Shown here piece after piece: positions 2,587 through 37,013 of a stretch of 37,013 nt of DNA. The position numbers were made by a program, and so were the translations under genes. Location of the stretch: positions 1 through 37,013 of IMG/VR virus record IMGVR_UViG_3300024054_000172, one strand, 5' to 3'. The notes under the pieces are model-generated. The model made no database searches. It was given only the letters and a program-made list of their open reading frames with translations, and was not told where the DNA came from. Source of the DNA: a virus. The first letter of the stretch is position 1. Each line of letters starts with the position of its first letter.

Positions 2587-3526
2587 ACCGTTGCTTCAAG
2601 GGAATGAAAAGAAGTATCTGGCCGAGGCCATCGACGCTGGTGAAGTTTCAAGCGGCGGGTCATTCGTAAGGCGATTCGAGGAAGCTTTTGCCAAGTGGTC
2701 TGGAAATGACTACGCCGTGGCTGTATCAAGCGGAACGGCTGCCCTTGAAGTTGCCGCGCGCTCTCTTACCATGACAACGATCACCATCCCTGCGGGTACG
2801 ATCATAAGCTGCTTTATTGCCGCGACTAGGGCAGGAGTGGCAGTCAGTCTGCATGACAACATAACATGGAAGAAAGACGGTGCTGTCATGCGTTGCCACC
2901 TTTTCGGGTGTTTTGATCGTTCCCACGGAAAATTTATCTTGGATGACCTCTCTCAATATTGGAAACCCATCCGAGTGAAGGATGCTGGGTGCTATTCGCT
3001 TTATGCGAATAAACTCATTACGTCTGGCGAGGGCGGGGTAGTCGTAACAAACAACAAAGACGTTTATGAACGCGCGAAGTCTTACAGGGATCTTTGCCAC
3101 AGCAAGGAGCGCTTTGTCCACTATGAGCTTGGGTATAACTTTAGGATGTCTAATCTGCAGGCAGCCGTGGCTCTCGCTCAGCTTGAGCAAATCGAAAAAT
3201 TTATAGAAATCAAGAGGCGGAATAGAGACCTTTACATTAAGTACCTTCCGGCCTCGGTAGAGGCGCTGTTTATGGTGGATGTGCCTTGGATGTATCTTGT
3301 CCAAACGAAACGACCAGCCGGCGAAATCGTCAGTCTCTTGAAAGCGGATGGAATCGAGTGCAGGAGGTTTTTCTACCCACTACATCGGCAGCCATGCATA
3401 GACTTCCCTGGCGAATATCCGATAGCCGACGAGCTTTGGAATTATGCTTTTTATATGCCAAGCGGCCTAACCTTAACGGAAGCGGAGATCATCAATGTTT
3501 GCGAAGCCCTACGCAAAATACTATGA
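2570..3526 (+). CDS. DegT/DnrJ/EryC1-family sugar aminotransferase
   Basis: A PLP-dependent enzyme that would transfer an amino group (normally from glutamate) to a nucleotide keto-sugar in the cytoplasm. Family landmarks are in order: an early SSGGSFVRRFEEAFAKW region, the AVSSGTAALEVAA cofactor-binding loop, LDDLSQ (Asp contacting PLP), YANKLITSGEGG with K148 as the Schiff-base lysine, and YNFRMSNLQAAVALAQL. At 318 residues it is shorter than the usual 360-400. The shortening is largest between the SSGTAA loop and the PLP aspartate. The start overlaps the cupin gene and the end overlaps the methyltransferase gene. No sugar dehydratase is present in the cassette, so the keto-sugar is presumably host derived or made by one of the SDR proteins. 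Confidence 0.9.
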   Translation: MIRVSEPLLQGNEKKYLAEAIDAGEVSSGGSFVRRFEEAFAKWSGNDYAVAVSSGTAALEVAARSLTMTTITIPAGTIISCFIAATRAGVAVSLHDNITWKKDGAVMRCHLFGCFDRSHGKFILDDLSQYWKPIRVKDAGCYSLYANKLITSGEGGVVVTNNKDVYERAKSYRDLCHSKERFVHYELGYNFRMSNLQAAVALAQLEQIEKFIEIKRRNRDLYIKYLPASVEALFMVDVPWMYLVQTKRPAGEIVSLLKADGIECRRFFYPLHRQPCIDFPGEYPIADELWNYAFYMPSGLTLTEAEIINVCEALRKIL

Positions 3527-4136
3527 CCTTCTGAACGGCGATAAGCCATACAAACGTGAGATTGAGTTTATCTACAAGTGGGCCGGCCGGCCAAAATGGA
3601 TATTTGATATCGGTTGCGGCACAGGAAGTTATTGGAAATATTACCCTAAAAGGACTGAAATTCTAGGCATTGATAAGTCACCGGACATGGCCGCTCACCG
3701 GCCAGGATCAATTATTTGCTCCGATATAAGAAGCTACAGGCCAAAGGCCATTTTTGACTGTGCGACGGCACTCTTTGATGTCATAAACTACATTCCAGTT
3801 CATGATTGGTGGAAGAACATTCCGATCGCTAAGGGTGGGTATTTTATTTTCGATATTTGGGATAAAAGAAAAGTGGATAAAGAAAATTTCAGAAGCACTG
3901 TAACGAAAGTAAATGGAGTTTCGAGGCTTATTGTTCCGTTGGGTTATGACGGTAAAAAGGTTGATTTAAAAATAACGGTCTATGAATACGAAGACTTGTC
4001 ATTTGTAGAGACCCACCGAATGTATTTATATAGTCATGAGGACATTCTTGGTTACGCAGAGTTAAACGGTTTTAAATTTATCTGTACAAGACCTACAAGA
4101 AAATGGCAGATATGGTACAAGCTCAGAAAAAAATAG
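3495..4136 (+). CDS. Class I SAM-dependent methyltransferase
   Basis: A 213-residue Rossmann-fold methyltransferase. Motif I is FDIGCGTGSYW (residues 37-47), followed by an acidic end of strand 2 (LGIDKSP) and the TALFDVINYI motif-IV region. It closely resembles the standalone methyltransferases of polysaccharide loci that O- or N-methylate sugars, often amino-sugars made by a neighbouring aminotransferase. It overlaps the aminotransferase by 32 bp and the GT4 gene by 34 bp. Substrate unknown; a sugar is inferred from context. Confidence 0.85.
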   Translation: MFAKPYAKYYDLLNGDKPYKREIEFIYKWAGRPKWIFDIGCGTGSYWKYYPKRTEILGIDKSPDMAAHRPGSIICSDIRSYRPKAIFDCATALFDVINYIPVHDWWKNIPIAKGGYFIFDIWDKRKVDKENFRSTVTKVNGVSRLIVPLGYDGKKVDLKITVYEYEDLSFVETHRMYLYSHEDILGYAELNGFKFICTRPTRKWQIWYKLRKK

Positions 4137-5113
4137 CGCTTCTTCACCGTTATCAAAAAAATAGCATCAAAGAAACGAATGCGGCTTTTCCTTATCTTGA
4201 AGCCAAAGGTATCGATGTTTTAACCTTCAAGCAATTTGACCGCTTGGGAGGATTTGGTAAATTTTGGAAAGGGCTTTTGTGGATCTTCTACGCGCCGCTT
4301 CTTGTAATCGGTCGTGGTTACAATGTTATCTACTGTGATGACTCCTATCCATTTTATCCAGCGCTAGTCAAAATCGCTTCTCCTCGTTCAAAGATCGTAA
4401 TCCGCCTGGGTGATCTCCACCTTCTTTATTATTACAAGGGCTTCGCCTATGAGATTCTTCACTTTTTCGAGGAAATTGGATGGTCGATAGCCGATAGAAT
4501 CATTGTTATATCGGAAGCTATGGCAGAGCGGTTGATAAAAGAGGGCTATGAATGTGAGGTTGTTCCTGACCCCGTGGACCCTAGTGATTTTCCACAAGAG
4601 ATAACACAAGAAGAAGGTAGCGTGATGTTTCATGGCGTCCTCACAAAAAATAAGAACATAGGCATTCTTCTCCAAGCCGCAAGACTGCTACCAAAAGTAA
4701 GATTTTCTATTGTTGGATCTGGCCCAGATCTAAGGAGACTAATGGATGTCGCCCCGAGCAATGTTCATTTTCAAGGTTGGGTACCATTCAAAGATATCCA
4801 TCATCAAATTGGTTCTTGTTCTGTCGGAATCGCTTTGAGGAGCGACAACCCCGGAAACGAATACGTTGTCACCTCTCCATTTCTCCAATACGGCATCATG
4901 GGGAAACCGTGCCTTGTGACGCGCCGGAAGGTCTTTGGAGATTACAAGTGGCAGTTTTCAGACGTCTATCAGCTTGCGACACAGATAAAAGGACTTTTGT
5001 CAGACCCGGATTATTTACGTTCGGAAGGTGAGAAGCTTAGGGAGAACATCTTTAAAAACCATCACGCAAATAAGATCGCGGACCAGATATGGCAAATCCT
5101 TACGCAAGTGTAG
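4103..5113 (+). CDS. GT4-type glycosyltransferase (GT-B fold)
   Basis: A 336-residue protein with two Rossmann-like halves. The N-terminal half contains NVIYCDDSYPFYPALV and an IADRIIVISEAMAERLIKEG element typical of GT4 acceptor domains. The C-terminal half contains VPDPVD, MFHGVLTKNKNIGILLQAA, FSIVGSGPD and FQGWVPFKDI, the donor-binding pattern of GT4. The usual EX7E motif is weak: the region around SPFLQYGIMGKPCLVT replaces the common PxxxxEAMAxGxPVV. It should transfer one sugar to a lipid-linked or nucleotide-linked acceptor at the cytoplasmic face. The first codons (ATG 4103 or 4112) lie inside the preceding gene. Confidence 0.87.
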   Translation: MADMVQAQKKIALLHRYQKNSIKETNAAFPYLEAKGIDVLTFKQFDRLGGFGKFWKGLLWIFYAPLLVIGRGYNVIYCDDSYPFYPALVKIASPRSKIVIRLGDLHLLYYYKGFAYEILHFFEEIGWSIADRIIVISEAMAERLIKEGYECEVVPDPVDPSDFPQEITQEEGSVMFHGVLTKNKNIGILLQAARLLPKVRFSIVGSGPDLRRLMDVAPSNVHFQGWVPFKDIHHQIGSCSVGIALRSDNPGNEYVVTSPFLQYGIMGKPCLVTRRKVFGDYKWQFSDVYQLATQIKGLLSDPDYLRSEGEKLRENIFKNHHANKIADQIWQILTQV

Positions 5114-5880
5114 TTATCTGCACGATTGGCCACCCTGCAGGTGTCTTGGAGGACCTCAAAAAACAAACCTTTCAGGGTTTTGAGGTCATTATTGCTTCTG
5201 AGAAGGGTATCGTGAATGCCATGAATTTGGCATTAGAACGCGCTAGGGGTGAGATTTTCATCCGGGTGGATGATGATGTTGAAATTCCTGAAAAGTGGCT
5301 GGAAAACCTTATAACACCGTTTTTATCGAATCCCATGATAGCAGGGGTTACAGGGCCCACATTTGTGCCAAAAGTGCGCCGGGAATGCCGGGATAGCATC
5401 AAGTTTGCCGAGAATCCCGGGTGGTTTTTAAGATGGCTCTATGACAATGGGGATTTTAATCCCGGAGGGATACGAAAATGTGGATGTCCTTCCTATGATT
5501 CAAACTTTGAAGAAAGATTTTGGAGTTGCGATACGTTTAAGCCGGATCACCTCGAAGGAACAAACTGGGCTATGAGGACGCAACTCATCCGAATGGTTGG
5601 AGGTTTCGATCCTAAATTTGATGGTGTCGCCGAATGGTATGACACTGACGTAGAGGCCAAGATTAAGAAGCTGGGCTATCACCTTCTCTACAACCCAAAG
5701 GCGTATCTTTACCACATGCTTGAGAAGGGGCCACAGTACCACGACCGTTTTGAAGGTTGGGGACGAATAAAAAATTTTCTCAGGTATCACATAAGGCACG
5801 GGAAGTTTCATTACAAGATGGTGGTTTATTTGGCGGTTTGGATAGGGTACTTCATGTGGCGAAGGTTTAGGCGTTTATAA
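5089..5880 (+). CDS. GT2-family glycosyltransferase 1
   Basis: A GT-A fold enzyme of 263 residues. The N-terminal strand ASVVICTIG is followed by RVDDDVE (D61-D63, the metal/nucleotide-binding DxD), then GTNWAMRTQLIRMVGGFDPKF and the acidic EWYDTDVEAKIKKLG stretch that supplies the catalytic base in GT2 enzymes. The C terminus (about residues 240-258) is hydrophobic and ends in an Arg-rich tail, so the enzyme is probably anchored to the inner membrane with its active site in the cytoplasm. It overlaps the GT4 gene by 25 bp. Confidence 0.88.
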   Translation: MANPYASVVICTIGHPAGVLEDLKKQTFQGFEVIIASEKGIVNAMNLALERARGEIFIRVDDDVEIPEKWLENLITPFLSNPMIAGVTGPTFVPKVRRECRDSIKFAENPGWFLRWLYDNGDFNPGGIRKCGCPSYDSNFEERFWSCDTFKPDHLEGTNWAMRTQLIRMVGGFDPKFDGVAEWYDTDVEAKIKKLGYHLLYNPKAYLYHMLEKGPQYHDRFEGWGRIKNFLRYHIRHGKFHYKMVVYLAVWIGYFMWRRFRRL

Positions 5881-5881
5881 A

Positions 5882-6277
5882 ATGAATTTTCGTGTTCACT
5901 TCTCAAGTGTTAGGCAAAATTGGAGAACCCCAAAAGCTTTTTATCAAGCTTTAGATGCAGAATTTGAATTTAATTTCGACCCATGTCCGAAAAAACCAAA
6001 ATACGACGGCCTGAAAATCGAGTGGGGGGGGGTATCATTTGTCAATCCTCCATATCGAGAATGCGCCGCTTGGCTCAGGAAGGGTTTTGAGGAATATACA
6101 AAAGGAAAGACAGTCGTGTTCTTGATTCCTAGCAGAACAGATACGCGATATTGGCACGATTATTGCATGAAAGCATCTGAGATTCGCTTTGTCCGTGGCC
6201 GGCTTCACTTTGACGGCCATAAAAACAGCGCCCCATTCCCAAGTGCGATTGTGATTTTCAAAGGCAAAAAAAAGTGA
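5882..6277 (+). CDS. Phage N6-adenine DNA methyltransferase (Dam-type, small)
   Basis: A 131-residue protein matching the phage 'DNA N-6-adenine-methyltransferase' family: an opening WRTPKAFYQALDAEFEFNFD, then DPCP, then the catalytic NPPY motif (FVNPPYRECAAWL) and FLIPSRTDTRYWHDY, ending in FPSAIVIFK. It would transfer a methyl group from SAM to adenine N6 in DNA, protecting phage DNA from restriction or marking it. It is shorter than many relatives (about 150-180 residues) but keeps the core. It lies between two glycosyltransferase genes, an unusual place. A run of nine G residues precedes the NPPY codons. Confidence 0.87.
   Translation: MNFRVHFSSVRQNWRTPKAFYQALDAEFEFNFDPCPKKPKYDGLKIEWGGVSFVNPPYRECAAWLRKGFEEYTKGKTVVFLIPSRTDTRYWHDYCMKASEIRFVRGRLHFDGHKNSAPFPSAIVIFKGKKK
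6024..6032 (+). repeat. G9 homopolymer inside the DNA methyltransferase gene
   Basis: Nine consecutive G residues encode the W-G-G part of IEWGGVSFVNPPY, a few codons before the catalytic NPPY. A one-base slip would shift the frame and remove the active site. Poly-G tracts of this length are a classic phase-variation substrate in bacterial methyltransferase and surface genes. Its use here is inference. Confidence 0.8.
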
Positions 6278-7095
6278 AAATAAGCGTAATCATCCCGACA
6301 ATGAAAGGCCGCGAACATCTTTTAGATAGGCTTCTGAACTCCCTGCCAAGAGATGTTGAGCGGATCGTTGTGGACGACGAGGACTTGCTTCTGGCGGCGA
6401 AGAGGAATAAGGGCGCAAGATTGGCGAAAGGTGAGTATCTGTTTTTCGTAGATGATGATAACTACTTGGAAGCCGGAGCCATGGAAGCCGCTCTACAATT
6501 ATTAACAAAACCTTTAATAGGCATAGTCGGATTCATGGCCTGCTACGATGACAAGCAAGACTGTGTAGCCGACGGTGGTTCAAAAAGGAATTACCTGACA
6601 GGATTTACACGCGGAATAAACACAAACGCTTTTTGGCCGGATCTTCCTAAGCAACCGTATGAGGTGGACGAGATTGCAAATGCGTTTCTGATGGAATCAC
6701 AGCTATTCTTTGAACTCAACGGTTTCGACGAGCATAACTTTCCTATTGATCTTGACGAGGCCGATTTTTGCAAACGTGCCAAGGACATCGGCCTCAAAAT
6801 AATGATGTGTCCGATGGCACGGGTGTACCACAAGTCAATCACATACAGTCCTATCCCGGACTTTAGGAGGCCTAAAAATGCGTACTTTATGGGTCGGAAT
6901 CGAATTATTTATCAGAGAAAGTTTAATAATCCTTTACGTTACGGCGTGTACCTTGGCGTTTTCATGCCTGTATTTGTTGGTTTTTATACGGTGTCGCTTA
7001 TTTGGCGCCGGAAACCGTTAATGATCTACCACTTTTTAAGGGGGGTTATAGATGGAATACTCGGTCGTCGAGAAAATCCATATCAGAAAAGATAG
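6274..7095 (+). CDS. GT2-family glycosyltransferase 2 (rhamnosyltransferase-like)
   Basis: A 273-residue protein starting at a GTG that overlaps the methyltransferase stop. The GT-A core shows ISVIIPTMKGREHLLDRLL, the AKRNKGARLAKGEYLFFVDDDN block with D60-D62 as the DxD, and NAFLMESQLFFELNGFDE...DLDEADFCKRAKDIG as the acceptor/catalytic region, in the style of bacterial rhamnosyltransferases. Residues about 225-265 carry hydrophobic segments (GVYLGVFMPVFVGFYTVSLI), indicating membrane attachment. It should add a sugar to a lipid-linked intermediate. The sugar specificity cannot be read. Confidence 0.87.
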   Translation: MKISVIIPTMKGREHLLDRLLNSLPRDVERIVVDDEDLLLAAKRNKGARLAKGEYLFFVDDDNYLEAGAMEAALQLLTKPLIGIVGFMACYDDKQDCVADGGSKRNYLTGFTRGINTNAFWPDLPKQPYEVDEIANAFLMESQLFFELNGFDEHNFPIDLDEADFCKRAKDIGLKIMMCPMARVYHKSITYSPIPDFRRPKNAYFMGRNRIIYQRKFNNPLRYGVYLGVFMPVFVGFYTVSLIWRRKPLMIYHFLRGVIDGILGRRENPYQKR

Positions 7096-20684: not shown

Positions 20685-21296
20685 ATGGCTACATACACAA
20701 CAGTTGGAATTTGCAATCACGCGCTTGTTCTCTGCGGCGCCTCGCCTATCACAGCCTTGACAGAAGATTCTGTTAATGCAAGAGCATTAAATTCCATAAT
20801 CGAAAACGAACGAAAAAGTTTTCTCACTGAGTGTCGGTGGACATTCGCGCTCACAAGGACAACGCTTGCCACTGTCGCTACAACCACAGTCCAATGGCTT
20901 CATAGCGAGGAAGCGTATGTTTATTCCAGACCTACGGATATCCTCCGCATTTGGGAAATGAGCGACATTGAGGCCATCTGGCGCGAGGAGGGAAGTCATA
21001 TTATTTCAGATACGGCCACTCTTGGAACGCTCGCCACAAGGGATCATTCTGAGTACGGTCTGTGGCGTCACAAATCAGTAGAGGCCTTCATAGACAAATT
21101 ATGCGCGGCGATTTGTTTTCATATTCTAAACGACGCAAGAAAAGCTCAGTCGTTTCTTGAAAAATACGAAAAGATATCTCTGCCGAAAGCAATGGCGGAG
21201 GATTCTCAAACCGGCCTGCACCAGGAAGTTCTTGATGACGCCTGGCTCAAAGCCAAATACGGAGCGGGTGGTAATCCAGCGAGGTCATACAGCTAA
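20685..21296 (+). CDS. Tail tubular protein A-like (gp11-like adaptor)
   Basis: A 203-residue protein. The opening TVGICNHALVLCGASPITAL, followed by NARALNSIIENERKSFLTECRWTFALTRTTLA, is the signature of T7 gp11/tail tubular A-type adaptors, which sit under the portal and join the tail nozzle to it. YSRPTDILRIWEM and the C-terminal helix IDKLCAAICFHILNDARKAQ also fit. The stop overlaps the next start as TAATG. Confidence 0.83.
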   Translation: MATYTTVGICNHALVLCGASPITALTEDSVNARALNSIIENERKSFLTECRWTFALTRTTLATVATTTVQWLHSEEAYVYSRPTDILRIWEMSDIEAIWREEGSHIISDTATLGTLATRDHSEYGLWRHKSVEAFIDKLCAAICFHILNDARKAQSFLEKYEKISLPKAMAEDSQTGLHQEVLDDAWLKAKYGAGGNPARSYS

Positions 21297-22243
21297 TGGC
21301 AACCATTGACCCTAGAAGAATAAGTGACGCAAAAGACGCATGGGTAAGCGCTCTTTATGCCAAGACAGTTGGCTCAACGGCAGATGACAGCGTTCTTCCT
21401 ATGGTAATCGATTCAAGCGGATATCTTCTAGTCAACATGACGGTCGGAACGTTGACTCTTAATACGACCGCAACAACCATAACCAACGCAGTAGGCAACC
21501 CAGCAAACGTTTCCCTCACAAACACCAAGGTTACTGTTGAATCGTCTGGTTTGAATGTTACTTTGACTTCGACGAAAGTAACAATTGAAAGCTCAGGGCT
21601 AAACGTAACACTCACCTCCACGGCGGTAACGGCATCCTTGTCGACGACAAAAGTGACAGTCGACAATACGATCACGTCCTCGCTCTCATCGACCATAGTG
21701 ACGGCACATCTATCGCCTTCGGCGTCCCTGGCTACCGTTTCTCTTTCTTCAACAATAGTCACAGCTCACCTTTCTCCATCGGCTTCGCTTGCAACGGTAT
21801 CCCTTGCTTCCACAAGGGTCACGGTCACGCTCATTTCAGGTCAAACTGCAGTTGACGGAAATACAGGAGCGGTAGCGGCGACGACTTTGAGAGTCGTAGA
21901 GGCAAACGAATCTGGAAAGACCCTTACCGGGGCCACAGGGACCATATCCGCGACGTGGACATCGATTTACACACCGAGCAACAAAGCTAAGATTTACGCG
22001 TTCTCGTTTACGACAACATCATCGTCGGAAGTAACGGTATTGATTTGTGATGGAGCTTTCGCTAACGCAAAGGAGAAATGGCGTGTTACGCTCATGGCTC
22101 CATCGGGCGCAAATTCAGGAGCTAACCTTGCGGTTCCGCCGACAGCTTATCTTTTCGCTACCCGGTCGACGTCCGCCGTTACGATCAGTTTAAGCACAGC
22201 TGTTTTAGTCCACTACTCTTTATCTTTTTATGACGAGGCCTAA
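21296..22243 (+). CDS. Ser/Thr/Val-rich repeat tail protein
   Basis: A 315-residue protein in the tail module. Residues about 60-185 consist of short beta-strand repeats with alternating V/L and S/T (for example VTLTSTKVTIESSGLNVTLT). They include a 20-residue unit (LSSTIVTAHLSPSASLATVS) present twice in tandem without a single residue change, and an earlier pair VESSGLNVTLTST / IESSGLNVTLTST. The C-terminal 120 residues are non-repetitive (a GTISATWTSIYTPSN region) and may be a beta sandwich. A tail fibre, tail-attached or surface protein is likely. The very high Ser/Thr content would suit O-glycosylation. Confidence 0.65.
   Translation: MATIDPRRISDAKDAWVSALYAKTVGSTADDSVLPMVIDSSGYLLVNMTVGTLTLNTTATTITNAVGNPANVSLTNTKVTVESSGLNVTLTSTKVTIESSGLNVTLTSTAVTASLSTTKVTVDNTITSSLSSTIVTAHLSPSASLATVSLSSTIVTAHLSPSASLATVSLASTRVTVTLISGQTAVDGNTGAVAATTLRVVEANESGKTLTGATGTISATWTSIYTPSNKAKIYAFSFTTTSSSEVTVLICDGAFANAKEKWRVTLMAPSGANSGANLAVPPTAYLFATRSTSAVTISLSTAVLVHYSLSFYDEA
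21683..21802 (+). repeat. Tandem 20-codon repeat, identical protein, recoded DNA
   Basis: Units 21683-21742 and 21743-21802 encode the same 20 residues, but 18 of 20 codons differ, all synonymously (only ATA for Ile and one TCG for Ser are shared). The repeat is therefore nearly invisible at DNA level. Confidence 0.9.
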
Positions 22244-22954
22244 ATGGCAGAGGCAGCTGCTGATTTTGACGGAAGCGCATCGAATATTTCTTTTACGAAT
22301 GTTGTTACTGGAAGCGGGGCGATTTCGATAGCGGTTTGGGCAAACCTCGACTCGGTCGCCGATAATAAGCCTTTTGTTGAAGTCGGTAATATCCATCTTG
22401 GAATTTATAACGATGGAAGTGTGATTGGTCCAAATTTCCACGTTCCAGGATCCTTCCAAATAAGGGCGAACGATACCAGCACAAACATCTCAACTGGATC
22501 ATACTTTTTTATCGTTGTTACTCACGCCGGAGGTCAAGTCAATACAACCAATACCGCACTGTATGTCAACGCGACTGCTTGTGTTTTAGGCGGGAACGCC
22601 GGAACCCCGACAATTGATAGCTCAGGGTTAATTGGAAAAAGAACCAGTGGGCCTACTTATGCCGATGGTAGGATAACGCACGTCATGCTTTGGAACGACC
22701 AACTAACTTCTTCGGAAGTCACGGCATTATACAATTCAGGAACCGTGCTTTATCCTACGGCAAATTCAGGAAATTACGCTTCCGCGGCTAATCTCCAACA
22801 TTATTTCAAATGCAACGAAGGATCAGGCACGACGATTGATGATACCCAGCAAGTCGCGAACGGCACTTTTAATAATGGTTCTTGGCTAGCTGGAGGTGGC
22901 CCGCCGATTCCTATCGTGGGTGTTCCAAAGATGATGCTCATGGGGATTGGTTAA
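22244..22954 (+). CDS. LamG/concanavalin A-like lectin domain protein
   Basis: A 236-residue protein composed mainly of one LamG-type jelly roll (about residues 5-165): AAADFDGSASNISF, AISIAVWANL, YFFIVVTHAGG, TALYVNATACVLGG and GRITHVMLWNDQLTSSEVTALYNSG. The last is the usual closing 'VRIYNRALSxxEIxxLY' element. The C-terminal part ends in Gly/Pro-rich sequence. Such domains bind glycans. Next to the large tail protein, it is probably a tail-attached receptor-binding component. Confidence 0.78.
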   Translation: MAEAAADFDGSASNISFTNVVTGSGAISIAVWANLDSVADNKPFVEVGNIHLGIYNDGSVIGPNFHVPGSFQIRANDTSTNISTGSYFFIVVTHAGGQVNTTNTALYVNATACVLGGNAGTPTIDSSGLIGKRTSGPTYADGRITHVMLWNDQLTSSEVTALYNSGTVLYPTANSGNYASAANLQHYFKCNEGSGTTIDDTQQVANGTFNNGSWLAGGGPPIPIVGVPKMMLMGIG

Positions 22955-25900
22955 ATGAAAGTAGATGTAATACAAACGAGTTTTAGCGGCGGTGAATTTG
23001 GGCCGTCGCTTTACGGCAGAACGGATATCGCGCAATACGCAAATGCCTGTGAGATCGTTCAAAACATGCTCCCACGTTCCTATGGCCCGGCAATATCTAT
23101 GCCAGGGACTCGTTACGTCGCAACCGCCAGCGATTCCACCCTTAGGACTCGTCTTATAAAATTCGTCTTCAATCGTTCCGATGCTTACGTGATTGAAATG
23201 GGCGACCTTTATATGAGGTTTTATACAAATAGAGGCCAAGTTATAACTCCATCCGGGACTGAGGACTTATCGGCTTTCGGCTCTAATGTAAAAGCACATT
23301 GGAAGTGCAATGACAATACCAATTCAACGACTGTCCTTGACGCCCAAACTACACATAACGGCAGCACTTCGACGATCACTCAATCACTGAGCACGACGGC
23401 GATTGTCAGCACCGGATTTCAACTTAATGGGATATATCATGTCTCGGTAACTGATCATGCAAATTTCACGAGGACAGCCGCCTCCCAACCAATGACCATC
23501 GTCGGATGGGCGTATTATTCAAATAATGGATCAACCCAAGCGATTGTCTCAAAATCCGGCGAATATGAGTTTTCTATTAATTCATCAGACCAACTTTCAT
23601 TTATCGTGAGTTCAGGAACAGCCGATACTAAACTCCTCATTCACGCAGATGGAGCGGATGGATCAACATCTTTTACGGATTCGTCTGCATCAGGACATAC
23701 TATAACGGCCAATGGGAATGCTCAGGTCGACACGGATCAAAAAGAATTTGGAACTGGGTCGCTTCTATGCGATGGAACCGGAGACTACCTTTCGATACCC
23801 GACCATGCAGATTGGGATTTTGGAACAGGCGATTTCACGATTGATTTTTGGGTTAGGTTCAACACTCTAAATCCTACCCAACCTACTATGATCGATATCG
23901 GTGGAACCGCTGCCGGCGTTGCCATCACGTACACAGCCAATCAGCTTTATACTTACGTCGCTGGAAGCGTGATCACTTACAGCTGGACGCCCGTTATCAA
24001 TAATTGGTATCACGTCGCCTATGTGCGCTCATCAGGAACCATCTATGCATTCATCAACGGGACGCAGATAGGGACTACTGCAAATAGCAACGACGTACAA
24101 ACAAGCCAGGGCATTAGGATCGGGTCACATTTTGGGGGTTTAAGTGACTTCGATGGCTGGATGGATGAGATTCGCATTGTAAAAGGAAGCGCTGTTTGGA
24201 CAAGTAACTTCAGTGTTCCTAGCGAACCACATCAGACAAGCGCTTCAAATACATGGCAAGCAAACGATGAAATCACAACAGGATGGCATCTCTTCGCAGT
24301 TGTATTTAAGGGTGACGGCACCGCATCCGGTCATTGCAAAATTTATATCGACGGAGTTTCAAAAAATCTGACTTTTACTCCTGACACAAGTTTCGTAAGG
24401 ATGAGTGATACCACTTCTCTTTTCAGGATAGGGGCAACATCGGCCGCAGGAGCCAAAAACTGGAAAAATAAAGTAGACAATATAGCATTTATTCATTCGG
24501 AACTGACCGCAACTCAAATCGCTTCTTTATACAGCACGGCCGCTTATCAACTTACAACCGTATTTACGCAAAATGAGGTTTTCGACGTTCACTACGTCCA
24601 ACTGAACGACATTATATGGCTTGCTCATCCAAGTCACCCGCCTCAAAAATTAATCAGGACATCAGCGAACGAATGGGCAATTTCAAATCTCTCTTATATC
24701 GGAGGCCCATTCCTTGACTCAAACACGGACACGTCAACGACTCTTTTTGTATCCGCTACGCAAGGGACGATAAATATTACAGCTGCAACAGGTAAAAATG
24801 TTTTCACGCTGTCAGGCAGTACGCTTGGACACCACAATGCTTATTTTTCTATAGGGCCTTTGACAGCCGAAACAAACGCGACCACCGGGCTTAGGGAAGT
24901 GGCCTATGTCAAGATCACCAACGTTATCAACAGCTATACAGCCACAGGTACCGTCATAAAGAATTTGAATGTTGATATATCTACCTCAACTTCAACCTGG
25001 GCTGAGGGAGCATGGAGCGCCGTCAGAGGATACCCAGCTAGGGTTACTTTACATGATTTTCGTCTCTGGTTTGCCAGAACCAATTATGAGCCGCAAAAAG
25101 AATGGGCATCAAAGATTTTTAAATACGAAGACTACGCGCTCGATACAGAAGCTGATGATGACTCCTTGAATCTTCCGTTGAGTTCCACAGAATCCAATGA
25201 GATTCAATGGCTTGCTTCGGCGAATAATTTATTGGCCGGCACGTTTGGTGGCGTATTTGTCACAAGCTCAGGCGGTGACGACGTCGCGATAACCCCGGAT
25301 AATGCCCACGTAAGTGAGGAGGTAGGATACGGATCCGCCTCTATCATGCCACGAAGAATAGGCCATTTTGTTTATTACCTTCAGAGATTCGCTAAAAAAC
25401 TGAGGGAAATGTTTTACTTTTTTGATCTGAATACCTACAAGGCGGTAGACAGGACAATTCTTGCGCCACATATTCTTGGCGACGGCATCATGGACATGGA
25501 CGTTCAGCAAAACCCGGAGAGCATCGTCTATTGCGTCCTTACAAGCGGGACCCTTGCCACGATGACAAGAGAGGTCGATCAAGAGGTAACGGCCTGGGCT
25601 ACACACACGACGAGCGGGACTTATACCTCAATAGCAGTCATTCCGTCTCAATCGGCAAATTATGACGAAGCATGGGTAATCGTCGAGCGATGGGTCAATG
25701 GTACTCAGAGAAAATATATCGAATATTTCGAGAATATTGAAGTGCCGGCAAGACAAGATAAATGTTTGTATCTTCATTCGGCACTCAGCTTCGACGCCTA
25801 TGAGGCGACAAGCACGTCTGCTGTAACCATTTCGCTCTCCGCTTCGTCCGGGTCTGTCACGCTTACTTCTTCAAGCGCCTATTTTATCAATGCGCATGTA

Positions 25901-26527
25901 AACAGAAAAATTAGGGCGATTAACGCGGCTGGAACAACCGTCGGTGAAGGCACAATAACGGCCACATCCTCAACGACAAGCATCACTCTAAGCATCACAA
26001 CGACTTTTAACGCTCTTTCCTACGTAGGTGGTCTTTGGGGCATGTCGGTACGAAGTGTATACAGAATTGATCATCTTGAGGCGAAAACCGTTGGGATACT
26101 GGCAGACGGCCTCGTGGATTCACTTACAAGAACCGTGGCCTCAGGTACCGTAACTTTGACGACGACAGCCTTTGTTATTCACGTCGGGCTTTCTTACGAC
26201 CAGATTATTCAAACGCTTCCAAAGGAGGCTGCCGCTCAAAGGGGAACGGCCCAAGGAAAATGGCAAAGGTTCAGTGACATCGCCTTTAAAGTTAATCGCT
26301 CCACACAGAATTTTAAATACGGCCCGGATTCTGGAAATCTGGACGACATCAATTTAGCTTTCACGCCAACAATAACGACTCTTTATACGGGCATCATTCC
26401 GACGATAGGCACGCTTGCTATGCGAGGGGGGTATTTCCGCGGTGCAAAGATTTATATCAAAAACTCCAATCCGCTTCCTCTTGAGATTTTGAGCATCATG
26501 GGGGCATTGGACACAAATGAGAAGTGA
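22955..26527 (+). CDS. Large tail nozzle/stabilisation protein with nested LamG insertions
   Basis: A 1190-residue protein. Residues 1-97 (FSGGEFGPSLYGRTDIAQYA, PGTRYVATA, LIKFVFNRSDAYVIEMGDLYMRFY) and 530 onward (YQLTTVFTQNEVFDVHYVQL, WLAHPSHPPQKLIR, GPFLDSN) match the two sides of the podovirus stabilisation/tail tubular B-like family. Between them lies inserted LamG material. One LamG begins at about 112 (HWKCNDN, MTIVGWAYYSNNG, YEFSINSSDQLSFIV), breaks at about 223, and resumes at about 429 (TGWHLFAVVFKGDG, CKIYIDGVSK, KVDNIAFIHSELTATQIASLY). A second complete LamG (KLLIHADGADGSTSF to SNFSVPSEPH) occupies the gap. The C terminus has another Ser/Thr-rich beta stretch (STSAVTISLS). Probably the tail tip component facing host glycans. 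Confidence 0.84.
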   Translation: MKVDVIQTSFSGGEFGPSLYGRTDIAQYANACEIVQNMLPRSYGPAISMPGTRYVATASDSTLRTRLIKFVFNRSDAYVIEMGDLYMRFYTNRGQVITPSGTEDLSAFGSNVKAHWKCNDNTNSTTVLDAQTTHNGSTSTITQSLSTTAIVSTGFQLNGIYHVSVTDHANFTRTAASQPMTIVGWAYYSNNGSTQAIVSKSGEYEFSINSSDQLSFIVSSGTADTKLLIHADGADGSTSFTDSSASGHTITANGNAQVDTDQKEFGTGSLLCDGTGDYLSIPDHADWDFGTGDFTIDFWVRFNTLNPTQPTMIDIGGTAAGVAITYTANQLYTYVAGSVITYSWTPVINNWYHVAYVRSSGTIYAFINGTQIGTTANSNDVQTSQGIRIGSHFGGLSDFDGWMDEIRIVKGSAVWTSNFSVPSEPHQTSASNTWQANDEITTGWHLFAVVFKGDGTASGHCKIYIDGVSKNLTFTPDTSFVRMSDTTSLFRIGATSAAGAKNWKNKVDNIAFIHSELTATQIASLYSTAAYQLTTVFTQNEVFDVHYVQLNDIIWLAHPSHPPQKLIRTSANEWAISNLSYIGGPFLDSNTDTSTTLFVSATQGTINITAATGKNVFTLSGSTLGHHNAYFSIGPLTAETNATTGLREVAYVKITNVINSYTATGTVIKNLNVDISTSTSTWAEGAWSAVRGYPARVTLHDFRLWFARTNYEPQKEWASKIFKYEDYALDTEADDDSLNLPLSSTESNEIQWLASANNLLAGTFGGVFVTSSGGDDVAITPDNAHVSEEVGYGSASIMPRRIGHFVYYLQRFAKKLREMFYFFDLNTYKAVDRTILAPHILGDGIMDMDVQQNPESIVYCVLTSGTLATMTREVDQEVTAWATHTTSGTYTSIAVIPSQSANYDEAWVIVERWVNGTQRKYIEYFENIEVPARQDKCLYLHSALSFDAYEATSTSAVTISLSASSGSVTLTSSSAYFINAHVNRKIRAINAAGTTVGEGTITATSSTTSITLSITTTFNALSYVGGLWGMSVRSVYRIDHLEAKTVGILADGLVDSLTRTVASGTVTLTTTAFVIHVGLSYDQIIQTLPKEAAAQRGTAQGKWQRFSDIAFKVNRSTQNFKYGPDSGNLDDINLAFTPTITTLYTGIIPTIGTLAMRGGYFRGAKIYIKNSNPLPLEILSIMGALDTNEK

Positions 26528-35172: not shown

Positions 35173-35386
35173 ATGGACAGCCGAAGAAAGAGCGCTCTTT
35201 ACTCGATTTCATAGGGATACGAAATTGGAGCTTCTATCTATGGAAGAACTTTCTATCCTAAAATCCATTGTGGATATTGAGATGTATTGTCAACCAATAT
35301 CCAAAGACATGATAGATGAAGCCAATTACATCATCGACTGTTTTGACGCAGGAATCTTATCAAGAAAAGCCGAGAGTAGCCAATGA
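35156..35386 (+). CDS. 76-residue hypothetical protein
   Basis: The ATG at 35156 has a GGAGG site 7 nt upstream. An acidic helical protein (EWTAEERALFTRFHRDTKLE, ELSILKSIVDIEMYCQPISK) with no known motif. The stop overlaps the exonuclease start by ATGA, so it is translated together with the recombination genes. Confidence 0.65.
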   Translation: MRAWNEWTAEERALFTRFHRDTKLELLSMEELSILKSIVDIEMYCQPISKDMIDEANYIIDCFDAGILSRKAESSQ

Positions 35387-36243
35387 CGACAGCTATTGAT
35401 CGTAAGACTTTCATAGGTGGTTCCGATATAGCCGCGGTTATGGGTCTTTCCCGTTGGAAAACCCCTCTACGTCTATGGGCTGAAAAAACCGGGAAACTCG
35501 AACCGCCTGACTTGTCCGATATCGAACGTGTTGAGATCGGCGTGGAGCTCGAGGAATACGTCGCAAGGAAGTTTGAGCGAAAGACTGGTTTTAAGGTTCG
35601 TCGTGATAATAGGGATATACGCCATCCTCAATACGGCTATATGCGTGTCCATATCGACCGCCTTGTTCTTGACGGCGAATCCATCCTTGAGTGCAAAACC
35701 ACGTCTGCTTGGATGCTTAAAGATTGGGAGGGTACCGACATACCTCAAGAATATGTCCTCCAAACAATGTGGGGTATGGGGCTTCTCAAGCGTCAGAGAG
35801 GGTTTATCGCTGTATTGATAGGTGGCCAGCGGTTCATGTGGAAAGAGATCGTCTTTGATCAAGGACTTTTTAATCGCATGGTCGTTTCAGCAAAAGACTT
35901 TTGGGAGAACTACGTTGAGGCGGACATTCCCCCGATGGCGATGGCCGACGACAACGAAACCCTATCCGAGCTTTACCCAGAGTCTCACGACAAGGTTATT
36001 CAATTCTCAGGTGCAGACGCTGAAATGCTCGACCACCTTATAGACGACCGGAATAACGGTATCCAAGTCAAGAAAGAGACTGAAAAAGACCTTAAAGAAA
36101 CCGAGGCCAAGATAAAGGCTTACCTCAAAGACGCATCAGCCGGCGAGACAGATAAGTACCGTTTTACCTGGCAAACCGTAGCAAAGAAGGAATACACCGT
36201 CCCAGCATCCAGTTTTAGGGTGTTTAGGACATTTCAAAAATGA
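35383..36243 (+). CDS. YqaJ-family viral recombinase exonuclease
   Basis: A 286-residue PD-(D/E)XK nuclease. The start GGSDIAAVMGLSRWKTPLRL is the YqaJ signature. EIGVELEEYVARKFE, MRVHIDRLV, ILECKTTSAW (the E-x-K catalytic pair) and PQEYVLQTMWGM (the QxxxY-like motif) follow in order. It should degrade 5' ends of dsDNA to give ssDNA for RecT, as in lambda Exo/Bet. The C-terminal third is helical. The pairing with recT (one small gene between) supports this. Confidence 0.92.
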   Translation: MTTAIDRKTFIGGSDIAAVMGLSRWKTPLRLWAEKTGKLEPPDLSDIERVEIGVELEEYVARKFERKTGFKVRRDNRDIRHPQYGYMRVHIDRLVLDGESILECKTTSAWMLKDWEGTDIPQEYVLQTMWGMGLLKRQRGFIAVLIGGQRFMWKEIVFDQGLFNRMVVSAKDFWENYVEADIPPMAMADDNETLSELYPESHDKVIQFSGADAEMLDHLIDDRNNGIQVKKETEKDLKETEAKIKAYLKDASAGETDKYRFTWQTVAKKEYTVPASSFRVFRTFQK

Positions 36244-36401
36244 AGATTGTGTTGGGGAAGCTAACTGTGCATGAGGTTGTCCCCATGCTACGGGAACCTA
36301 ACCAGCCGACCGAGCGCACGAATAGGCGGCTACGATCCAGCCATGTGCTATCTGGACGTTGCGATGAGGGTAGCTATGCAAACTACCAAGAAGGCCGCTA
36401 A
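36240..36401 (+). CDS. 53-residue protein between yqaJ-type gene and recT
   Basis: The ATG at 36240 overlaps the exonuclease stop (ATGA). The product is basic (MKIVLGKLTVHEVVPMLREP, then an Arg-rich TERTNRRLRSS) and is not recognised. It fills most of the 182-base gap before recT. The coupling supports translation but the composition is unremarkable, so it could be a non-functional frame. Confidence 0.42.
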   Translation: MKIVLGKLTVHEVVPMLREPNQPTERTNRRLRSSHVLSGRCDEGSYANYQEGR

Positions 36402-36425
36402 TACTTTAACCGGAGGATAAAAAAA

Positions 36426-37013
36426 ATGACCACATCGAGCGCGGTTCAAAAGGTCAAAGAGAAGGTCGAAAACGGAGCGGCAAAAGTCACTCCTATCCAA
36501 AACATGATCGAGCAGTCCGTCAAGGAGCTTGGTCGGGCACTCCCGTCGCACATGAACGCAGAGCGACTCGTCCGTATCGCTTTGACTACCTTACGGCTTA
36601 ACCCGAAGCTCTACCAGTGCGAGCCAAGGTCTTTCCTCGGGGCACTCTTTCAATGTGCTCAGCTTGGATTAGAGCCAAACATCGAGGGACAGGCGTACAT
36701 CATCCCTTATAACACAAGAGGGGTGCTGGTGGCTCAATTTCAGGTGGGCTACAAGGGCTATGTCGAACTTTTCTTCCGGCATCAAAACGCCGTTTCTCTC
36801 TCAATGGAAAAGGTCTGCCGGAATGATCAGTTCACATACAACCTAGGATCCGGAGAAGTGAGCCACGTTCTTCCCGATTTTGACAAAGATCGTGGTGAGG
36901 TAATCGCCTACTACGCAGCGGCAACAATGAAAAACGGAGGTCGTGCCGTTAAGGTCATGTCCAAAAAAGAAGTCGAAGCGTTCGCCAAGCGTTTCTCGAA
37001 GTGTTGGGACCGA
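36426..37013 (+). CDS. recT: RecT-family annealing protein, N-terminal part (runs off the end)
   Basis: The ATG at 36426 has GGAGG 9 nt upstream. 196 residues are visible: VTPIQNMIEQSVKELGRALP, ERLVRIALTTLRLNPKLYQC, SFLGALFQCAQLGLEPNIEG and FQVGYKGYVELFFRH. These are the diagnostic RecT motifs (the QLGLEP and YKGY blocks form the DNA-binding core). The gene continues at position 2 of the window, giving about 286 residues in total. Partner of the YqaJ-type exonuclease. Confidence 0.95.
   Translation, partial: MTTSSAVQKVKEKVENGAAKVTPIQNMIEQSVKELGRALPSHMNAERLVRIALTTLRLNPKLYQCEPRSFLGALFQCAQLGLEPNIEGQAYIIPYNTRGVLVAQFQVGYKGYVELFFRHQNAVSLSMEKVCRNDQFTYNLGSGEVSHVLPDFDKDRGEVIAYYAAATMKNGGRAVKVMSKKEVEAFAKRFSKCWDR
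36872..37013. repeat. Right copy of terminal direct overlap
   Basis: Matches 1-142 with three mismatches (36998, 37001, 37013). Each falls in a third codon position of recT and leaves the residue unchanged (TCC/TCG, AAA/AAG, CGT/CGA). That pattern points to real sequence variants in the source population rather than read errors. Confidence 0.9.

Follow-up and report, generated by a model that had tools for sequence, protein, structure and literature searches.

Does a tail protein of this phage carry one LamG domain inside another, and if so, what would such a cassette do at the tail? The question was raised by a preliminary description of a 37,013-nt stretch of viral DNA (IMG/VR record IMGVR_UViG_3300024054_000172, positions 1 to 37,013; hereafter the window), in which positions 23288-24540 were flagged as a LamG nested in a LamG, interrupting a tail nozzle protein between residues 97 and 530 and extending receptor binding. 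The flagged interval corresponds to residues 112-529 of a nozzle open reading frame in which residue i begins at nucleotide 22955+3(i-1); the gene and its parts are as follows.

22955..26527, + strand: tail nozzle gene (T7 gp12 / P22 gp10-like, phrog_376), 1190 aa, including the nested LamG cassette
22955..23248, + strand: nozzle scaffold, N-terminal segment, residues 1-98
23249..23623, + strand: outer LamG, first half, residues 99-223
23624..24244, + strand: inner complete LamG, residues 224-430
24245..24544, + strand: outer LamG, second half, residues 431-530
24545..26524, + strand: nozzle scaffold, C-terminal segment, residues 531-1190 (phrog_376 / phrog_15566)

The window nozzle matches phrog_376 (tail protein) with E 3.4e-160 over residues 1-1189 (profile positions 2-711 of 712), both ends included, the profile being about 480 residues shorter than the protein. 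Scaffold profile N stops at residue 98 and scaffold profile C starts at 531, in agreement with the boundaries first proposed, and Pfam finds Laminin_G_3 alone between the two scaffold segments. The insert comprises residues 99-530, with the outer LamG at about 101-223 and 431-530. A nozzle model was predicted with AlphaFold2 from a 25-row alignment (pLDDT 79, pTM 0.71), and its closest folds in VIA-align are podophage nozzles, with Carin-1 first (8ck1_A, Z 39.4, 732 residues aligned), LME-1, and then T7 gp12, the chains of which reach Z 23-26 (8e4g_P, Z 25.6). In the predicted model the protein has a T7 gp12-like nozzle fold of platform, propeller, dock and tip. T7 gp12 is a hexamer with a platform, fibre dock, beta-propeller and tip, and since its propeller follows the platform, which includes the N-terminal 45 residues (PMC6702177), the insertion point at residue 98, here called site A, would lie in the first propeller strands, within a hairpin. 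The hairpin is kept as 4-8 residues in most relatives.

Pfam Laminin_G_3 matches each of the three parts of the insert. Residues 224-430 cover profile positions 1-142 of 151 (72.6 bits, E 5e-20, cut-off 27.6), residues 104-223 cover positions 10-64 (23.7 bits, under the curated cut-off when taken alone), and residues 431-533 cover positions 78-151 (31.1 bits, E 3e-7). The inner LamG, originally drawn at 224-428, is a complete domain from 224 as described, and its end moves to about 430. A single-LamG profile of 235 positions was made from uninterrupted site-A LamGs only, those of relatives L006, L107, L026, L114, L116, L141 and L142. Against it the first outer piece matches positions 1-138 (135.6 bits) and the last 125-234 (84.1 bits), and the two joined give one match over 1-234 of 235 (224 bits, E 8e-70). 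The flanking pieces, earlier given as 112-223 and 429-528, are by these complementary ranges the two halves of one LamG, as had been supposed. The split falls at about h130-139 in the single-LamG profile and at h110/h118 in a second LamG profile, seeded with the inner domain and iterated; in the joined halves, Pfam hmmscan with default filters found no LamG, and both unfiltered home-made profiles matched. The inner and outer LamGs are, by profile score, different LamG subfamilies, since the inner scores just 12 bits with the single-LamG profile. That the inner LamG arose by duplication of the outer one is rejected, the two being 24% identical vs 44-51% identity of the inner to LamGs of several unrelated proteins.

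The predicted structure agrees. Single LamG chains align discontinuously across model residues 104/111-527/532, and the best described of them, 5hon_A (AbnA domain 4 LamG, 206 aa, deposited with an arabino-oligosaccharide), aligns over 189 residues within 111-527 (Z 19.0, rmsd 2.7). Because this 206-residue chain covers 417 model residues, necessarily skipping the inner 207, the outer jelly roll is discontinuous, and in the model both of its halves form one closed jelly-roll sandwich. AlphaFold2 confidence within the inner domain is moderate (blocks mostly 55-83, lower at the domain start). Side-by-side jelly rolls had been named in advance as the structure that would speak against nesting; the predicted structure is nested. 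A tandem of two or three side-by-side LamGs, the flanks being worn remnants of different LamGs, is a very improbable account of the insert. Such tandems do exist, at site A of L008 (two tandem LamGs, 441 aa) and in other phage proteins (L017, L020), but here the flanking pieces correspond to one uninterrupted LamG in L006 and L107, the joined halves run nearly the whole single-LamG profile, and single-LamG folds span the model from 111 to 527. Profiles and model together confirm a whole LamG located between the complementary halves of another LamG, within a nozzle. The window nozzle has the order A1-B1-C-B2-A2, in which an inserted domain is itself interrupted by another whole domain. Near-identical copies occur on two other contigs (L001 and L002) and five more distinct contigs share the layout, so the nesting is not an assembly artefact.

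Relatives were gathered by scanning public viral contigs, and among them all three states that nesting implies, with zero, one and two insertions, are present at site A, so that profiles, predicted structure and natural series all bear out the nested reading. About fifty loci have no insert (4-21 aa). Some have an insert of about 82 aa, mostly alike and mostly FCCH-like; a related longer insert in L082 matches E1_FCCH, L103 has a CBM_5_12-like small domain, and L052 a small domain of no assigned family. One uninterrupted LamG of 232-257 aa occupies the site in the seven relatives used for the single-LamG profile; the window's inner LamG is absent from L006, L107 and L026. The nested LamG-in-LamG, 432-440 aa, occurs in six distinct contigs (the window, L003, L004, L005, L009 and L135). 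L042 and the split in L028 were left out, as both resemble frameshifts. The outer LamG of L006 had no match among 50,697 isolate-phage records. In L005 (4468-7644), the first ~11 positions of the inner LamG are missing and its end runs into the beginning of a further LamG repeat (SDSSTALLLHLN), which gives the impression of a piece excised from a tandem array in shifted register.

The series extends beyond one loop. In L121 (3180-7091, JABMRO010000035.1), at the same nozzle site, the LamG inserted in the outer LamG sits in an earlier, different loop, where its sister L116 and all other singles have a clean gap. The fold model of L121 (pLDDT 58) is too poor to use, and its nesting is read from sequence alone. 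This contig is binned with a Planctomycetota MAG, yet has a phage nozzle gene. A domain of ~150 aa resembling F5/8 type C lies in a third loop of the outer LamG in L147 (4583-7702), the Pfam match being weak (E 0.0027). Nesting thus arose more than once, L121 being independent of the window case, and the double nesting of the window belongs to a wider pattern, a hypervariable insertion site at which LamG is interrupted in at least three different loops. Another scaffold loop, at residue 63, holds a LamG in L033. There (3622-7004) the nozzle is in separate genes, a plain 101-aa N-domain gene, a second N-domain copy with the LamG, and a C part with its own ATG and a ribosome-binding-site-like GGAGAG, split exactly at the insertion site; this could reflect mixed tails or misassembly.

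Clean insertion, repeated in different loops, is also what a selfish or mobile element (intein-like or homing) trapped in the nozzle gene might produce. This account is extremely improbable, as the insert is a complete LamG in which Pfam shows no intein, homing-nuclease or transposase domain, terminal repeats are absent, and the reading frame is open in all relatives. Short direct repeats, which the preliminary description proposed looking for, failed to appear: none beyond chance lie at the window's insertion points, and none around its inner LamG are significant. L004 has the 7-nt AAGCGAG at both inner-LamG junctions, and about a quarter of random places reach as much. The GC content of the window's inner LamG (0.477 vs 0.43-0.47 in the rest of the gene) is not an outlier.

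The origin of the modules is best considered with the neighbouring genes.

20685..21296, + strand: adaptor (gp11-like tail tubular A) gene; phrog_394 tail protein, E 1e-26
22244..22954, + strand: stand-alone LamG gene, 236 aa, C-tail ...KMMLMGIG; Laminin_G_3, 52.8 bits
26535..27035, + strand: gp14-like internal virion protein; phrog_418 E 2.5e-10, T7_gp14 E 0.0016
35383..37013, + strand: RecE-like exonuclease (35383-36243) and RecT-like annealing protein (36426-end); phrog_434 E 3e-76, phrog_148 E 3e-55

The stand-alone LamG gene lies directly upstream of the nozzle gene, and its counterpart in relatives has an inner-type LamG (L004, L107, L033). The counterparts in L004 and L033 have similar short C-tails (..MLMGIS, ..MLMGMG) and quite different LamG modules, with ~27% identity to the window's stand-alone LamG. 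Between the adaptor and LamG genes, 21296-22243 encodes 315 aa with short repeats (..VESSGLNVTLTSTKVTI..) and no family match; this protein may be a repetitive beta fibre. No tail-fibre family was recognised among the ORFs scanned, many of which are matchless. At the ends of the record, positions 36872-37013 repeat 1-142 with three differences and the RecT-like ORF reads through the join; both point to a complete, circularly permuted genome whose overlap varies between strains.

Identity among nested members is 65-83% in the scaffold, 50-78% in the outer halves and 38-55% in the inner LamG, which is the fastest-changing module, the outer being much better conserved. The nested members group together in the tree of the outer LamG (91/98), which rejects placing the window with the singles (p 0.025), whereas the scaffold tree sets the window among the singles (95/98) and rejects a single clade of nested members (p 0.0002). 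Because the two trees conflict, the cassette has moved relative to the scaffold. An origin of the singles by simple deletion of the inner LamG is unlikely, since between singles and nested members the outer LamGs share no more than ~50% identity whereas the scaffolds share ~70-79%; the single LamGs of L006 and L107 are likewise ~50% identical to the joined outer halves of the window. Identical tracts of 82 nt and 41 nt (2034-2127 / 3383-3476 and 2508-2575 / 3857-3924) occur in L004 in both the inner LamG and the stand-alone LamG gene that precedes the nozzle gene, in an alignment that around the 82-nt tract is just 78% identical and for most of the remainder unalignable, suggesting recent gene conversion between the two. 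A gene-conversion tract was not found in the window itself, the inner LamG of which groups with the upstream stand-alone LamG of L004 (97/82). Starred tree branches point to separate origins of the inner LamGs; the AU test is not significant, a single origin of all of them not being rejected (p 0.18). Two papers report recombination of diverged DNA by phage recombinases of the RecE/RecT kind (PMC3945230, PMC2327257), and the RecE/RecT-like pair of the window is a candidate for driving the exchange of modules.

These observations are consistent with the following reading, which taken as a whole we give a probability of about 0.7. The beta-hairpin of site A, near the propeller start, would serve as a plug-in site on a hexameric DNA-exit nozzle; the outer LamG fills it, and a second LamG sits in turn in one of the strand-to-strand loops of the first. 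A structural role for the outer LamG is plausible: as a stalk or adapter, it may position the inner LamG at a greater distance from the tail. With six copies in each tail, the exit would be ringed by lectin-like domains, which may attach to glycans or proteins of the host surface during adsorption. Recombination between related LamG sequences, the adjacent stand-alone gene among them, would swap inner modules as well as whole cassettes, and the phage RecE/RecT may assist in this.

Within this reading, binding of the host surface by the LamG cassette is likely. That the cassette extends receptor binding is suggested by the LamG/ConA-like family, the pattern of swapping and one published nozzle adhesin. 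LamG/ConA-like folds are sugar-binding, and several other module types at site A are likewise of glycan-binding kinds. It is unlikely that the cassette instead braces the tail, contacting fibres or neck or widening the hexamer. Conservation of the outer LamG well above that of the inner is what a contact surface would be expected to show, but about fifty relatives have a short linker in its place, so that the domain is dispensable in the family (and, being absent from most relatives, dispensable for assembly), the inner domain is swapped or fast-changing, and several of the modules (LamG, CBM_5_12-like, F5/8C-like) are of glycan-binding kinds. Tethering by Ig-like domains on virions has been proposed previously, and inner-type LamG modules are widespread on many unrelated phage structural proteins, which would suit LamGs that bind environmental glycans or particles, tethering the phage weakly near cells, and no specific host receptor; this is quite unlikely for domains placed at the cell-facing nozzle rather than all over the capsid. 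Host binding by the displayed LamGs is in keeping with the podophage nozzle TTPB of Vibrio phage OWB, which binds a host receptor and, as free protein, blocks adsorption (PMC7241545).

A wider generalisation is offered tentatively and rated below even odds: nozzle site A, together with the loops of its LamG, may be a recursive dock at which phages insert host-binding modules into existing ones (in three different loops), diversity then coming from RecT-type recombination and from gene conversion with the stand-alone LamG gene next door, which would act as a module store. Since zero, one and two insertions at one site are all represented among living relatives, along with independent nestings and a recombination scar, the stepwise gain of host-binding complexity on a core tail part can be read directly and put to the test. 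The nozzle, besides fibres and spikes, may set host range in these podophages, and host-prediction tools confined to fibres would miss nozzle cassettes.

The scaffold fold of the window nozzle is common to T7 gp12-type nozzles (T7, Carin-1, P-SCSP1u, PhiM1; PHROG 376), as is the gene order of adaptor, nozzle and gp14-like protein. The Carin-1 nozzle has 6 aa at site A and no LamG cassette, whereas the window nozzle has one. By profile and fold, both the inner and outer LamGs resemble the Laminin_G_3 / ConA-like LamG family (PF13385), for example AbnA domain 4 (5hon); ordinary LamGs are contiguous or tandem, but the outer LamG of the window is broken up by a homologous domain seated in one of its loops. 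TTPB of Vibrio phage OWB is a nozzle adhesin mediating adsorption, as proposed for the window nozzle, although its receptor is a membrane protein and no LamG cassette is described for it (PMC7241545). Recursive nested insertions across proteins are already known, as are LamGs on phage structural proteins, where they are common. In an ECOD survey nested insertions are a minority architecture, motifs of the same kind are inserted repeatedly, 65.8% of insertions join different superfamilies, and the A1-B1-C-B2-A2 insertion of cyanobacterial RNA polymerase beta-prime Si3 is recursive, like that of the window nozzle (PMC13114784). The window case differs from the nestings of that survey in being a phage tail protein with the states of zero, one and two insertions alive in one family, which repeats the nesting in different loops and exchanges modules between phages. 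Within the literature searched, no precedent was found for a tail nozzle that carries one LamG within another, for its living zero-one-two series, for nesting that recurs in different loops, or for exchange with an adjacent LamG gene.
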